Shown here piece after piece: positions 1,895 through 5,348 of a DNA stretch of 12,591 nucleotides. The stretch covers positions 1 to 12,591 of the forward strand of contig JAUWXV010000096.1 of the NCBI GenBank assembly GCA_030616165.1. The letters are read 5' to 3'. Position 1 is the first letter of the stretch. Each line of letters opens with the position of its first letter. The translations under genes and the position numbers were made by a program. The notes beneath the pieces were generated by a model that did no database searches, was not told the origin of the DNA, and saw nothing but the letters and a program-made list of their open reading frames with translations. The DNA comes from a bacterium. Lineage in GTDB: Bacteria > SM23-31 > JAUVVT01.

Positions 1895-2039
1895 GTTACT
1901 TTCTTTGAAAAGAAAGTAACCAAAGAAACTTTTAACATATTCCCTATCCCGTGCTTTGCACGGGATAGGGAATAATAGTAAGTTTACTCCGCCATAGGCG
2001 GGTTCTTTGTATTGCCTACTTCTTGTGAAAAGGAAGTAG
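1895..2039. repeat. Composite inverted-repeat element (family A), 145 bp
   Basis: The gap between the SAM-hydrolase and panB genes is almost wholly a nested palindrome. It holds four hairpins. 1895-1920 has 12-bp arms with a GA centre. 1938-1974 is a perfect 17-bp stem with a TTT loop. 1989-2001 is a 5-bp GC stem. 2016-2039 is an imperfect 9-bp stem. The halves are also inverted copies of each other: CAAAGAAACTT after the first hairpin mirrors GGGTTCTTTG before the last, and the central 17-bp stem joins them. The right half carries the 1989-2001 hairpin as an apparent extra. There is no ORF and no T-tract after any stem. It looks like a MITE- or BIME-like element made of two family-A units placed tail to tail. 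Confidence 0.85.
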
Positions 2040-2040
2040 A

Positions 2041-2838
2041 TTAATAACTCTCGTCTTCAGAAGGGAATTTTTTTTCTTTTACGTCTTTTATATAATTTTT
2101 AAATGCGGTTAACATATCATCATAAATATTGGCATAAATATGAACGAATTTAAGATGAAATTCTTTATTAAGACCGAGCATATCTGCATAAACCAGAATC
2201 TGGCCGTCACAGAATTTTCCCGCACCTATACCGATTGTGGGGATTTCAAGTTTTTCTGTGATTTTTTTTGCACACTCAGAAACAATCTTCTCCAGAACAA
2301 TACTAAATGCACCAGCATCCCTCAGAGCCAAAGCATCCTCCATAAGTTCCCTTTCGGCATCAGGACTATCACCGTGCACACTATACCCTCCCAATTTATG
2401 AACCGACTGCGGTGTTAAACCAATATGCCCCATAACCGGGATACCAAAATCTACAAGACGTTTTACTATATTTATTACAGATTTCCCTCCTTCTAATTTA
2501 ACAGCGGATGCACCTGCTTTCAGGAAATTTCCAGCATTCCTTACAGCCTCTTCAACTCCGCATTGATAGGATAAAAATGGCATATCAGCAATTACCAGTG
2601 CCCTTTTTACACCATTTTTTACCGCTCGTGTATGATAAAGCATCTCCTCCATCGATATCTTCAAAGTATATTCATATCCTGCAAAAACATTTGCAGCAGA
2701 ATCCCCAACAAGAATTATATCTATTCCGCTCTCGTCAAGAATCTTGGCAGTAATATAATCATACGCAGTCAGCGCTGAAATCTTTTCTCCCCTCTCCTTC
2801 ATCATACGAAGTTTTATTGTTGTTACCTTATCCTGCAT
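2041..2838 (-). CDS. panB: 3-methyl-2-oxobutanoate hydroxymethyltransferase (PanB)
   Basis: First committed enzyme of pantothenate and hence coenzyme A synthesis; it transfers a hydroxymethyl group from methylene-tetrahydrofolate to 2-oxoisovalerate, giving ketopantoate, in the cytoplasm. At 265 aa it is full length. Family motifs are in order: ALTAYD (22-27); VGDSAANVFAGYEYT with metal ligand Asp46; ADMPFLSYQ with metal ligand Asp85; VKLEGG with Lys114; MGHIGLTPQSVHKLGGY (136-152); VLEKI with catalytic Glu183; and IPTIGIGAG..CDGQILVYADMLGL (199-223). Asp46, Asp85, Lys114 and Glu183 match the known active-site residues of the Escherichia coli enzyme. The ATG is preceded by an A-rich stretch with only a weak, distant AAGG. 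No panC or panD is nearby, so the pathway is dispersed. It lies between two family-A repeats. Confidence 0.96.
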   Translation of the reverse strand: MQDKVTTIKLRMMKERGEKISALTAYDYITAKILDESGIDIILVGDSAANVFAGYEYTLKISMEEMLYHTRAVKNGVKRALVIADMPFLSYQCGVEEAVRNAGNFLKAGASAVKLEGGKSVINIVKRLVDFGIPVMGHIGLTPQSVHKLGGYSVHGDSPDAERELMEDALALRDAGAFSIVLEKIVSECAKKITEKLEIPTIGIGAGKFCDGQILVYADMLGLNKEFHLKFVHIYANIYDDMLTAFKNYIKDVKEKKFPSEDESY

Positions 2839-2878
2839 AATATTTTAATACCTTTTTTTAAATTTTAAAAAGAAAGTA

Positions 2879-2925
2879 GACACCTTTTTTGAAAAAAAGG
2901 TGTCCCAAAAAACTTACTATTATTC
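2879..2925 (+). repeat. Family-A hairpin repeat between mnmA and panB
   Basis: A 26-nt hairpin at 2879-2904 has 12-bp complementary arms (GACACCTTTTTT and its complement) around a central GA. It is followed by CCAAAAAACTT and the reverse complement of GAATAATAGTAAGTT, a 15-mer that also occurs at 1970-1984. The arm sequence differs from the 1895-1920 copy at several positions, each matched by a change in the other arm. AAAAGAAAGTAG just before it (2868-2879) resembles a stray right arm of the 1895 copy. The whole 2839-2941 gap holds nothing else recognisable. Confidence 0.75.
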
Positions 2926-2941
2926 ATTATATTCCAAATAA

Positions 2942-4042
2942 TCAAGTTATTCTTTTCTTTATTACACCTCCGCCGATGACTTTATCCCCCTTATAAAATA
3001 CTGCCGACTGACCGGGGGTAATAGATTTTTTGGGCGAATCAAAAATTATCTTGACCGTATTATCATCTATCGGATATACAGCCGAACTCGCTCCAGAATC
3101 ATTATACCTGATTTTGGTCGTCACATTTATTGGCTTATCCAATTTCTTAAAAGCGATAATATTAATATTATCAGCAGTAAGACCGATATCATATAAATCC
3201 TCTTCATCCCCTACGAAAATTCTGTTCGTATTCGGCTCAATATCGGTAACATAAACAGGTTTACCAACTGCTATGCCTAATTTTTTCCTTTGACCAATGG
3301 TATAGAATGGATAACCTTTATGCAGTCCTAAAACACTTCCATCTTTTGCTACTATTTCTCCCTCACCCACGTTGATTTCAGAGTCCTTAGTCCATTCATT
3401 CAAAAATCTATGATAGTCGTCATCCGGGATAAAACAAATCTCCTGACTTTCTCTGACTTTTGATGTCTTAAGATTCCTGCTACCGGCATATTCCCTGACC
3501 TCGGGTTTTGTCATCTCACCAATTGGCAAGATAGTCCTCGAAAGTGCACTCTGTGAAAGTCCCCAAAGAACGTAAGATTGGTCCTTTTTAGCATCCTTTC
3601 CTTTCTTTAACAGATATCTATTACTTCTTTTATCGAACTCAATCCTGGCATAATGTCCGGTTGAGAAGTAATCTGCACCAATTTCGAGTGCCTTTTTTAA
3701 AAGTGCCTCCCACTTAATTTTAATATTACATAAAACGCAGGGATTTGGAGTTCTGCCATTTAGATATTCTTCCACAAAGTTATTTATGACATATCTTTCG
3801 AAAATATCTGTGAAATCCAGTGTATAATGCGGAATCCCAATCTGACTGCACACATATCTCGCATTATCGATAGACTCCAGCGAACAGCATGATGATTCAT
3901 TTTCAACATTTCCTCCCAAATCCTCATATTCCCATAATTTCATAGTCAGACCAATAACTTCATACCCTTCTTCTTTCAGAACAACCGCCGCTACCGAACT
4001 ATCCACACCACCACTCATTGCTACCGCAACTTTTCTCTTCAT
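2942..4042 (-). CDS. mnmA: tRNA-specific 2-thiouridylase MnmA
   Basis: Cytoplasmic enzyme that thiolates U34 at the wobble position of Lys, Glu and Gln tRNAs, using ATP and persulfide sulfur. At 366 aa it matches the family. The PP-loop AMSGGVDSSVAA (8-19) activates the uridine by adenylation. NPCVLCN holds Cys102, and SQEICFIPD holds Cys203; these correspond to the two active-site cysteines of E. coli MnmA. Other landmarks are GHYAR (129-133), KDQSYVLWGLSQ and HKGYPFYTIGQRKKLGIA in the central domain, and a C-terminal barrel ending with ITPGQSAVFY. The ATG start places the PP-loop in the usual position but has no clear SD. The cysteine desulfurase directly upstream is the natural sulfur donor. 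The 148-bp gap between them holds two repeat hairpins, so co-transcription is probable but not shown. Confidence 0.97.
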   Translation of the reverse strand: MKRKVAVAMSGGVDSSVAAVVLKEEGYEVIGLTMKLWEYEDLGGNVENESSCCSLESIDNARYVCSQIGIPHYTLDFTDIFERYVINNFVEEYLNGRTPNPCVLCNIKIKWEALLKKALEIGADYFSTGHYARIEFDKRSNRYLLKKGKDAKKDQSYVLWGLSQSALSRTILPIGEMTKPEVREYAGSRNLKTSKVRESQEICFIPDDDYHRFLNEWTKDSEINVGEGEIVAKDGSVLGLHKGYPFYTIGQRKKLGIAVGKPVYVTDIEPNTNRIFVGDEEDLYDIGLTADNINIIAFKKLDKPINVTTKIRYNDSGASSAVYPIDDNTVKIIFDSPKKSITPGQSAVFYKGDKVIGGGVIKKRIT

Positions 4043-4111
4043 CTTGATAACAGAACTCAGGTAAATATATTAATTATCATTAAAATTATTATAGCAACTT
4101 AAATTTGAAAA

Positions 4112-4146
4112 ATTTTTAATTCCTTATGTAATAAGGAATTAAAAAT
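4112..4146. repeat. 15-bp AT-rich hairpin downstream of the cysteine desulfurase gene
   Basis: Perfect 15-bp stem with a 5-nt loop, core TTAATTCCTTA and its complement. On the transcribed (minus) strand it follows a second hairpin (4163-4188), and its distal arm ends in A-tract then T-tract. It is the only hairpin here that could pass as a weak intrinsic terminator or attenuator ahead of mnmA. GCAACTT recurs at 4094-4100 and 4164-4170, so both hairpins may belong to one longer element, about 4094-4188. Confidence 0.6.
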
Positions 4147-4162
4147 AATTTAAAGTTTTTTG

Positions 4163-4188
4163 TGCAACTTTTTTTCAAAAAAGTTGCA
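4163..4188 (-). repeat. Family-A hairpin repeat after the cysteine desulfurase stop
   Basis: On the minus strand this is a 26-nt hairpin with 12-bp arms (TGCAACTTTTTT and its complement) and a central GA, followed by CAAAAAACTTT. Size, centre and tail match the units at 1895-1920 and 2879-2904, but the arm sequence is different. It starts two bases after the stop codon of the cysteine desulfurase gene. Confidence 0.75.
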
Positions 4189-4190
4189 AA

Positions 4191-5348
4191 TTAAAAAGAA
4201 ACAGAAGAAAGTTCTTTTAATCTTTTTATAACCTTTGGAAAAACGGATAAAGCATAATCTATATCCTCTCTGGTATTCTGTTTTCCAAGAGAGATTCTGA
4301 TACTCGACTGCACCGTTTCTGGAGACAGTCCCATAGCCTCGAGCACATGGGATGGTTCGGAACTGCCTGAAGAACAAGCCGAACCAGTTGCAACCGCTAT
4401 ACCTTCAAGGTCAAGGCTTAAAAGTAAAGATTCCCCTTCGATTCCGCTGAATGACATATTAAGATAGCCAGGCAGTTTCTCTTCTGGATGTCCGTTAAAT
4501 TTAATATTGTCGATGGTTTCATACAAGTTTGTCCTGAAATAATCCTCGAGTTCGGATAAATATTTAAATTCGCTCCCCATTTCTTCAGCCCTTATTTCAG
4601 CCGCTTTTCCAAGACCTACAATTCCCGGAATATTTTCCGTTCCGGCTCTTTTGTTTCTTTCATGGCTTCCCCCGTGCAGGAGGGGCTGAATTTTTATTCC
4701 CCTTCTGACATAAAGTGCACCCACACCTTTCGGTCCGTATATCTTATGCCCGGAAATTGTCAAAAGGTCAACCCCAATTCCCTTTACATCAATCGGCAGT
4801 TTACCGAAGGTCTGAACTGCATCGCTATGAAATAAAATCTCATTCTCCCTTGTAATTTTCCCGATTTCACTAATATCATTAATTGTGCCTACTTCATTAT
4901 TAGCATGCATTATTGATACAAGTATAGTCTTTTTATTGATGGACTTCTTCACATCAGAAGGGTCAACCATTCCATATTTATTCACCGGAAGATACGTAAC
5001 TTTAAATCCATTAGATTCAAGAAATTCACAGGTATTTAAAACAGCATGATGCTCCACCATCGAGGTTATAATATGTTCCCCTTTATCGCGATATGCATAT
5101 GCAATCCCTTTAACAGCCAGGTTGTCAGATTCCGTGCCGCTTGAAGTAAAATATATCTCTGAATCTTTCGCATTAATCATATTCGCAATAATTTCCCTTG
5201 ATTTATCCATTCCAGTCCTGGCTTTCCTTCCAAACGTGTGGAGACTGGATGCATTCCCATAGGATATATGAAAAAATTCCTTCATAGCCTCAAAAACTCT
5301 CTTATCAACAGAAGTCGTCGCAGCATGGTCAAAGTATATTGGTTTCAC
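4191..5348 (-). CDS. iscS: Class I cysteine desulfurase (IscS/NifS family)
   Basis: PLP enzyme that removes sulfur from L-cysteine as a protein-bound persulfide, giving alanine, in the cytoplasm. At 385 aa it is full length. The start IYFDHAATT (4-12) is the family N-terminus. SSGTESDNLAVKG (69-81) binds the cofactor. EHH (99-101) contains the histidine that stacks on PLP. TISGHKIYGPKG (198-208) holds the PLP-binding Lys202. ATGSACSSGS (320-329) holds the persulfide-forming Cys325 in the long flexible loop typical of class I. The start codon is GTG; the conserved motif begins at residue 4, so no later start is possible. The SD is weak. With mnmA downstream and no iscU/nifU scaffold in the window, its partner is probably MnmA, as in the B. 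subtilis YrvO-MnmA pair, though Fe-S cluster supply cannot be excluded. IscS versus NifS naming is arbitrary here. Confidence 0.95.
   Translation of the reverse strand: MKPIYFDHAATTSVDKRVFEAMKEFFHISYGNASSLHTFGRKARTGMDKSREIIANMINAKDSEIYFTSSGTESDNLAVKGIAYAYRDKGEHIITSMVEHHAVLNTCEFLESNGFKVTYLPVNKYGMVDPSDVKKSINKKTILVSIMHANNEVGTINDISEIGKITRENEILFHSDAVQTFGKLPIDVKGIGVDLLTISGHKIYGPKGVGALYVRRGIKIQPLLHGGSHERNKRAGTENIPGIVGLGKAAEIRAEEMGSEFKYLSELEDYFRTNLYETIDNIKFNGHPEEKLPGYLNMSFSGIEGESLLLSLDLEGIAVATGSACSSGSSEPSHVLEAMGLSPETVQSSIRISLGKQNTREDIDYALSVFPKVIKRLKELSSVSF

Follow-up and report, generated by a model that had tools for sequence, protein, structure and literature searches.

An intergenic bacterial hairpin repeat with a mirror-image purine tail, a candidate triple-helix-forming element

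Three hairpins in a 12,591-nt contig of a bacterium from the SM23-31 lineage (JAUWXV010000096.1; the whole stretch is hereafter the window) are members of a dispersed DNA repeat family with approximately 100 copies in the 3.74 Mb genome. The units of this family are probably REP-like intergenic repeats, a single strand of which, judging from the symmetry between arm and tail, has a layout suited to forming a short triple helix.

The three window units and the family to which they belong

A preliminary description of the window reported three hairpins with 12-nt arms around a central GA, each followed by a CAAA(R)AAACTT tail, and all three are present with exactly this design (Table 1). The window units belong to larger elements, such as the composite at 1895-2039 around unit 1, the layout of which is repeated elsewhere in the genome (contig C302). 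By inspection, the second end hairpin of this composite is inverted relative to unit 1, and its own tail is broken by the mini-hairpin. The reverse-strand gene at 4191-5348 is followed, 2 nt past its stop codon, by the hairpin of unit 3.

Table 1. Positions and parts of the three units and of the associated palindromes in the window
Feature	Position	Strand	Sequence and remarks
Unit 1 hairpin	1895..1920	+	GTTACTTTCTTT-GA-AAAGAAAGTAAC; foot GTTA/TAAC, arms CTTTCTTT/AAAGAAAG, loop GA
Unit 1 tail	1921..1931	+	CAAAGAAACTT; AAAGAAA in the tail mirrors the purine arm
Perfect palindrome, centre of the composite with unit 1	1938..1974	.	TATTCCCTATCCCGTGC-TTT-GCACGGGATAGGGAATA; read directly; same layout in contig C302
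GC mini-hairpin	1989..2001	.	CCGCC-ATA-GGCGG; same kind as the inserts in the tails of other copies
Imperfect second end hairpin of the unit 1 composite	2016..2039	-	CTACTTCCTTTTCACAAGAAGTAG on the - strand; assigned by inspection
Unit 2 hairpin	2879..2904	+	GACACCTTTTTT-GA-AAAAAAGGTGTC
Unit 2 tail	2905..2915	+	CCAAAAAACTT
Unit 3 hairpin	4163..4188	-	TGCAACTTTTTT-GA-AAAAAAGTTGCA
Unit 3 tail	4153..4162	-	CAAAAAACTT
Palindrome after unit 3	4113..4145	.	TTTTTAATTCCTTAT-GTA-ATAAGGAATTAAAAA; inverted repeat I5

The genome scan that had been proposed along with this description recovered far more than a few copies: a covariance model built from 16 copies produced 155 matches at E<=1 (the best at 4e-14) in the same genome, some loci being matched on both strands because the units are palindromes. 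The pattern of hairpin plus tail matched 21 times in the 3.74 Mb, compared to 0 matches for the reversed control pattern, which is far more than chance would give. A pattern restricted to the arms, which counts each palindrome on both strands, yielded 100 forward and 103 reverse matches in this genome; a second genome from the family had 60 and 61, and four further genomes from the class had none. In 1.15 Mb of contigs from the same and the related genome, a stringent hairpin search returned 358 strand matches, 127 of these with a tail, the copy statistics being derived from searches and from contigs picked for carrying matches. Three trials with Markov-shuffled sequence gave no hairpin of the stringent design.

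The arms covary, as had been suggested from the three window units. Across the 16 copies, 96.8% of the stem cells are paired, changes on both sides occur at 5 of the 12 stem pairs, and the covariation score is 0.383 vs 0.112 after shuffling, with 0 of 500 shuffles as high. The arm types in this genome are NNNACTTTCTTT, NNNACTTTCTTTT, CTTACTTCTTTT, GACACCTTTTTT and GCAACTTTTTTT. Some of the units form inverted pairs, with the tails pointing inward, around one or two perfect palindromes of free sequence; many others are solitary and have no inverted partner.

Similar strings in unrelated genomes, mentioned in the preliminary description, do exist: relatives of the family were found across several phyla. 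At least 120 genome contig stretches contain a 20-base core; the carriers among the matches listed include Caballeronia, Xanthomonas, Stenotrophomonas, Ignavibacteriae, Campylobacteraceae, Clostridia, Selenomonadales and others, and in most of the matches listed, a hairpin lies upstream of the core. A Fusobacteriota plasmid carries the core as well, and relatives also occur in many Proteobacteria, the same A/T-rich core being found in GC-rich members of this group. The spread is patchy, with units in 6 of the 398 genomes from the phylum of the Selenomonadales carrier. No family member was detected in the phages searched, and a search of the literature by sequence string found no description from bacteria.

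Several larger arrangements were noticed along the way. In Stenotrophobium (L330, L336, L342, L345) and Caballeronia (L068, L145), units are located at both ends of 400-800 bp imperfect palindromes; these proteobacterial palindromes are non-coding, contain many nested hairpins and are present in tens of copies per genome. The Clostridia genome G006 (C47:21221-21476, C14:1944-2112) contains short tandem arrays of units with a period of 87 bp, which include a second palindrome, AAAACCCGTCGG..CCGACGGGTTTT.

The mirror-image tail and the pairing of the loop

The tail was initially regarded as fixed, conserved and single-stranded. It is not fixed but varies together with the arm, and a better description is that it mirrors the purine arm of the same unit. 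Among the units with asymmetric arms, the tail is the mirror image in 30 of 30: the arm TTCTTTT is followed by the tail AAGAAAA in 18 of 18 units, and the arm TTTCTTTT by the tail AAAGAAAA in 12 of 12. In the same 30 units, the tail is never a direct copy of the 3' arm (0/30), so this candidate explanation was rejected. The lengths of the A-tracts in the tail mostly track those of the T-tracts in the arm. Among 332 distinct units, drawn from eight genome sets, 273 were scorable, and the position of the odd base agrees between arm and tail in 265 of these, compared to 170 expected under independence; given shared descent within copy types, the independent events are fewer than these counts suggest. 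Varied arm types were seen in Clostridia (TTTTCTT with AAAAGAA), Selenomonadales, Stenotrophobium and Thiotrichales. In mixed composites, every tail matches its own arm and never that of the partner, which rules out pairing with the tail of the partner unit as the cause of the match.

A mirror-image tail is what would be expected if the hairpin and its tail formed a triple helix together. The sequence rule that three-stranded DNA follows is mirror symmetry in its purine tracts (PMC4666352), and the units with asymmetric arms display the order of a class II intrastrand triplex, that is, a pyrimidine arm, a purine arm and an antiparallel purine third strand (A.AT, G.GC). The ITxF definition of this class specifies stems of 6-15 nt and two loops of 1-6 nt each; unit 1 lies within these limits (stems of 7, loops of 2 and 6), and the second loop is longer in unit 2 (8) and unit 3 (7). 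Some copies contain one or two GC mini-hairpins (CCGCC..GGCGG) between the foot and the tail, and in many such copies, the tail beyond the insert is intact; that such inserts often leave the tail whole supports the triplex. The inserts occupy set places in the tail (L212, L213, L226, L243, L252, L261, L280, L286): in TTTCTTT-type units, the mini-hairpin follows the first C; in TTCTTTT-type units, it apparently lies inside the tail, after CAA (CAA-TCCAAAGGACCCGCCTATGGCGG-GGAAAAC).

Outside the window, copies of the repeat have loops of 4-10 nt that are complementary to the bases directly after the tail, for example, TTGTG with CACA, GCTG with CAGC, GCGCGG with CCGCGC, and CGAG with CTCG. The mean complementary run in 45 distinct pairs of loop and post-tail sequences is 3.69 vs 2.34 after shuffling (0 of 2000 shuffles as high). 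At an orthologous locus in Stenotrophomonas, the MFS-dksA intergenic region, the loop and the post-tail bases change jointly (TTCGCGAA/CGCTCC, GCGCGCGC/CGCGCC, GCTCGTGC/CACGCC) and changes in the stem are compensated; the unit is missing in other species. The window copies are probably the plain form of the repeat, without the predicted pseudoknot, because their loops of only 2 nt cannot pair in this way. In two Stenotrophomonas species, the hairpin at the same MFS-dksA locus carries an insertion of approximately 100 nt in its loop, with the arms and the tail still recognisable (L374, L369).

Placement, turnover and the search for a mobiliser

The units are short palindromes of high copy number and mostly intergenic, as in REP elements. 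In genome G000, 3 of the 97 units lie inside ORFs, as delineated for the placement counts by a simple script rather than a gene finder. In the same genome, the orientation of units between co-directional genes is balanced (36 vs 39), and divergent regions rarely hold units (2 of 84); in G006, 18 of the 19 classified intergenic units are in convergent regions. Units on the reader strand start at a median distance of 0-3 nt past the upstream stop codon, and those on the opposite strand end approximately 36 nt ahead of the next start.

Such placement would suit an element that acts mainly in RNA, with the pyrimidine-first strand of the transcript forming a triple-helix pseudoknot that would shield mRNA ends or slow ribosomes between genes. 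In favor of this rather unlikely alternative, divergent regions are avoided, reader-strand units start next to stop codons, and inverted pairs ensure that every transcript, from either side, ends with a pyrimidine-first copy; furthermore, triplexes of the pyrimidine motif are possible in RNA and those of the purine motif are not (PMC4666352). However, the pyrimidine-first orientation is not favored among unpaired units (28 vs 35), the sites are not kept between genera, and Rfam 15 contains no family matching at curated score, the sole match being a tRNA elsewhere. The lack of orientation bias leans toward DNA as the active form, whereas the position at stop codons leans toward RNA and counts against the DNA-level reading.

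Location between co-directional and convergent genes is also what would be expected of a site for a DNA-binding protein or of a bidirectional transcription terminator, in which case the tail would belong to the site. Both are quite improbable: a protein binding a dyad would select neither a mirror-image tail nor the pairing of the loop with post-tail bases, and most copies lack a U run after the stem on either strand. A terminator scan flags unit 2 alone among the three window units, and the stems are A/T-rich, in contrast to the G/C-rich stem followed by a T run that characterizes intrinsic terminators.

Syntenic comparison of the two members of the bacterial family, which represent two genera, yielded 41 gene pairs, 16 of them with a unit in one or both genomes. 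The two genomes are discordant at 12 of these 16 sites, including those of window units 2 and 3; unit 2 is missing from the syntenic intergenic region of G002. The units would appear to be a spreading sequence family because copies come and go intergenically, often as inverted pairs around free palindromes. Composites with inverted ends are present. In the syntenic comparison and at the Stenotrophomonas MFS-dksA locus, units are present in some genomes and absent in others, with flanks too diverged for exact boundaries or target duplications to be read.

The preliminary description likened the copying of the units to that of REP elements, which are moved by RAYT, a Y1 tyrosine transposase. The likeness to REP stands with respect to intergenic location, inverted pairs, and gain and loss between related genomes; mobilisation by RAYT does not, and we consider it highly unlikely that the units are ordinary REP elements, even with 7 Y1_Tnp genes in the same genome. 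Several of these genes, on inspection, lie among other palindromes (GTAGGGGCG..CGCCCCTAC, CCGAGCC..GGCTCGG). The proposed search for a Y1 gene flanked by units gave a negative result, with a unit within 500 bp of 0 of the 14 Y1 genes in carrier genomes. Furthermore, Y1_Tnp has no match in the carrier genomes G002, G006, G008 and G010, one of these four having approximately 200 copies and G002 being just 70% complete. The unpaired GTAG or CGTC tag at the foot of the hairpin is absent as well, GTAG being found only inside the paired feet of some copies. RAYT was rejected as the mobiliser on the strength of the four carriers without Y1_Tnp and the 14 unflanked genes, and a reverse transcriptase was rejected because RVT_1 was found in none of the seven genomes searched. 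Each single absence is weak because some of the assemblies are incomplete; taken together, however, the absences argue against either RAYT or a reverse transcriptase as a general mobiliser. Nor was a cognate transposase, of the kind that defines MITEs, identified, and no autonomous version was found because the Stenotrophobium and Caballeronia listings contain no unit pair enclosing a gene-sized insert.

The Y1 genes in the genome of the window (L034:6860-7780, L022:1000-2400) have other palindromes around them. Copies of the GTAGGGGCG..CGCCCCTAC palindrome surround one of these genes, another is flanked on each side by CCGAGCCTGGGGACAGGCTCGGCTACGG units in a long array, and in two close paralogues (L030, L031), GTAGGGGCG-like repeats lie within the reading frame itself.

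Template switching during replication, an established mechanism that restores inverted repeats without selection, might keep palindromes perfect in the A/T-rich intergenic DNA of this A/T-rich genome with no selection for a fold, but we give this explanation next to no credence, given that it cannot produce a mirror-image tail, that the hairpins are absent from shuffled sequence and that GC-rich Proteobacteria share the A/T-rich core.

The predicted fold and related systems

Under the triple-helix reading, the reader strand would consist of a foot of approximately 4 bp, the pyrimidine arm, the loop, the purine arm, the other side of the foot and the mirror-image purine tail, which would fold back onto the stem and serve there as an antiparallel third strand of purines. 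Read on the opposite strand, these bases would form a third strand of pyrimidines that is parallel to the purines, in the order known from telomerase-type pseudoknots. Where a copy has a larger loop, this loop would pair with the post-tail bases and tie the tail in place, yielding an H-type pseudoknot. The folded single strand, exposed in replication or repair, would be the form that is copied or recognised. Intrastrand triplex repeats that fold in vitro provide a precedent (PMC4666352). A weak point of the predicted fold is that, with a foot of 4-5 bp, only approximately 1 nt would join this foot to the third strand. In addition, A-rich triplexes of the purine motif are weak, which counts against the fold, and the absence of a mobilising gene and of an exact insertion boundary counts against the spreading model. 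In its entirety, the proposal is that these repeats cross phyla, that a single-stranded triple-helix pseudoknot is their replicating or recognised form, that they spread by neither RAYT nor a reverse transcriptase, and that they provide natural covariation evidence of triple helices in the repetitive DNA of bacteria; we put this forward tentatively, as a possibility somewhat less likely than not.

The closest kin of the family are the Box C/PIT/TM-ECO intrastrand triplex repeats (Holder et al. 2015, PMC4666352); the present repeats would be a variant of these that is rich in A/T and has a foot helix as well as, in many members, a pseudoknot. Both have a pyrimidine arm, a loop, a purine arm, a short link and a purine third strand; both are intergenic, without strand bias, occur as inverted pairs and are tied to variable loci; and for neither is a mobile gene or any promoter or terminator activity known (PMC4666352). 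Box C, however, is G/C-rich (CCCTCNCCC N3-6 GGGNGAGGG N3 GGGNGAGGG), and the present units do not conform to the Box C/TM-ECO consensus. Where Box C has a 3-nt loop, the present family has a paired foot of 4-5 bp, and, unlike Box C, it spans several phyla and shows pairing of the loop with post-tail bases in many members; the triplex was measured in vitro for Box C and is predicted from sequence here (PMC4666352). On a Variovorax paradoxus plasmid (L296:3250-3390), an inverted Box C-like triplex pair, CCCTCTCCC..GGGAGAGGGTTAGGGTGAGGG, lies inside a composite bounded by A/T-rich units.

With the GTAG- or CGTC-tagged REPs and REPINs (PMC3733652, PMC3116915, PMC8266576), the family shares short palindromes in approximately 100 or more copies, location mainly between co-directional or convergent genes and near stop codons, common inverted dimers, and an unpaired conserved flank at one foot. 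In REPs and REPINs, this flank is the 5' GTAG or CGTC tag, whereas here a purine tail on the 3' side, mirroring the arm, takes its place, with no associated RAYT gene. On the opposite strand, the order of a first stem, a loop strand along the second stem and the second stem itself is shared with the guanidine-III riboswitch (PMC5696562) and telomerase RNA, the loop strand being positioned in each case to be the third strand. Those, however, are single functional RNAs with solved structures, whereas the present family is a dispersed repeat without orientation bias, known from sequence.

Whether bacterial repeats that can form triplexes do so inside cells is an unsettled question: for Box C, the triplex forms in vitro, but footprinting did not support a stable fold in vivo (PMC4666352). 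Because natural copies with asymmetric arms tell a mirror-image tail apart from a direct copy, covariation of base triples can be tested across genomes in the same way as compensatory pairs in hairpins. If the fold is true, these units would constitute an additional REP-like element present in several phyla without a known mobiliser, and the question of how such palindromes spread would become testable.
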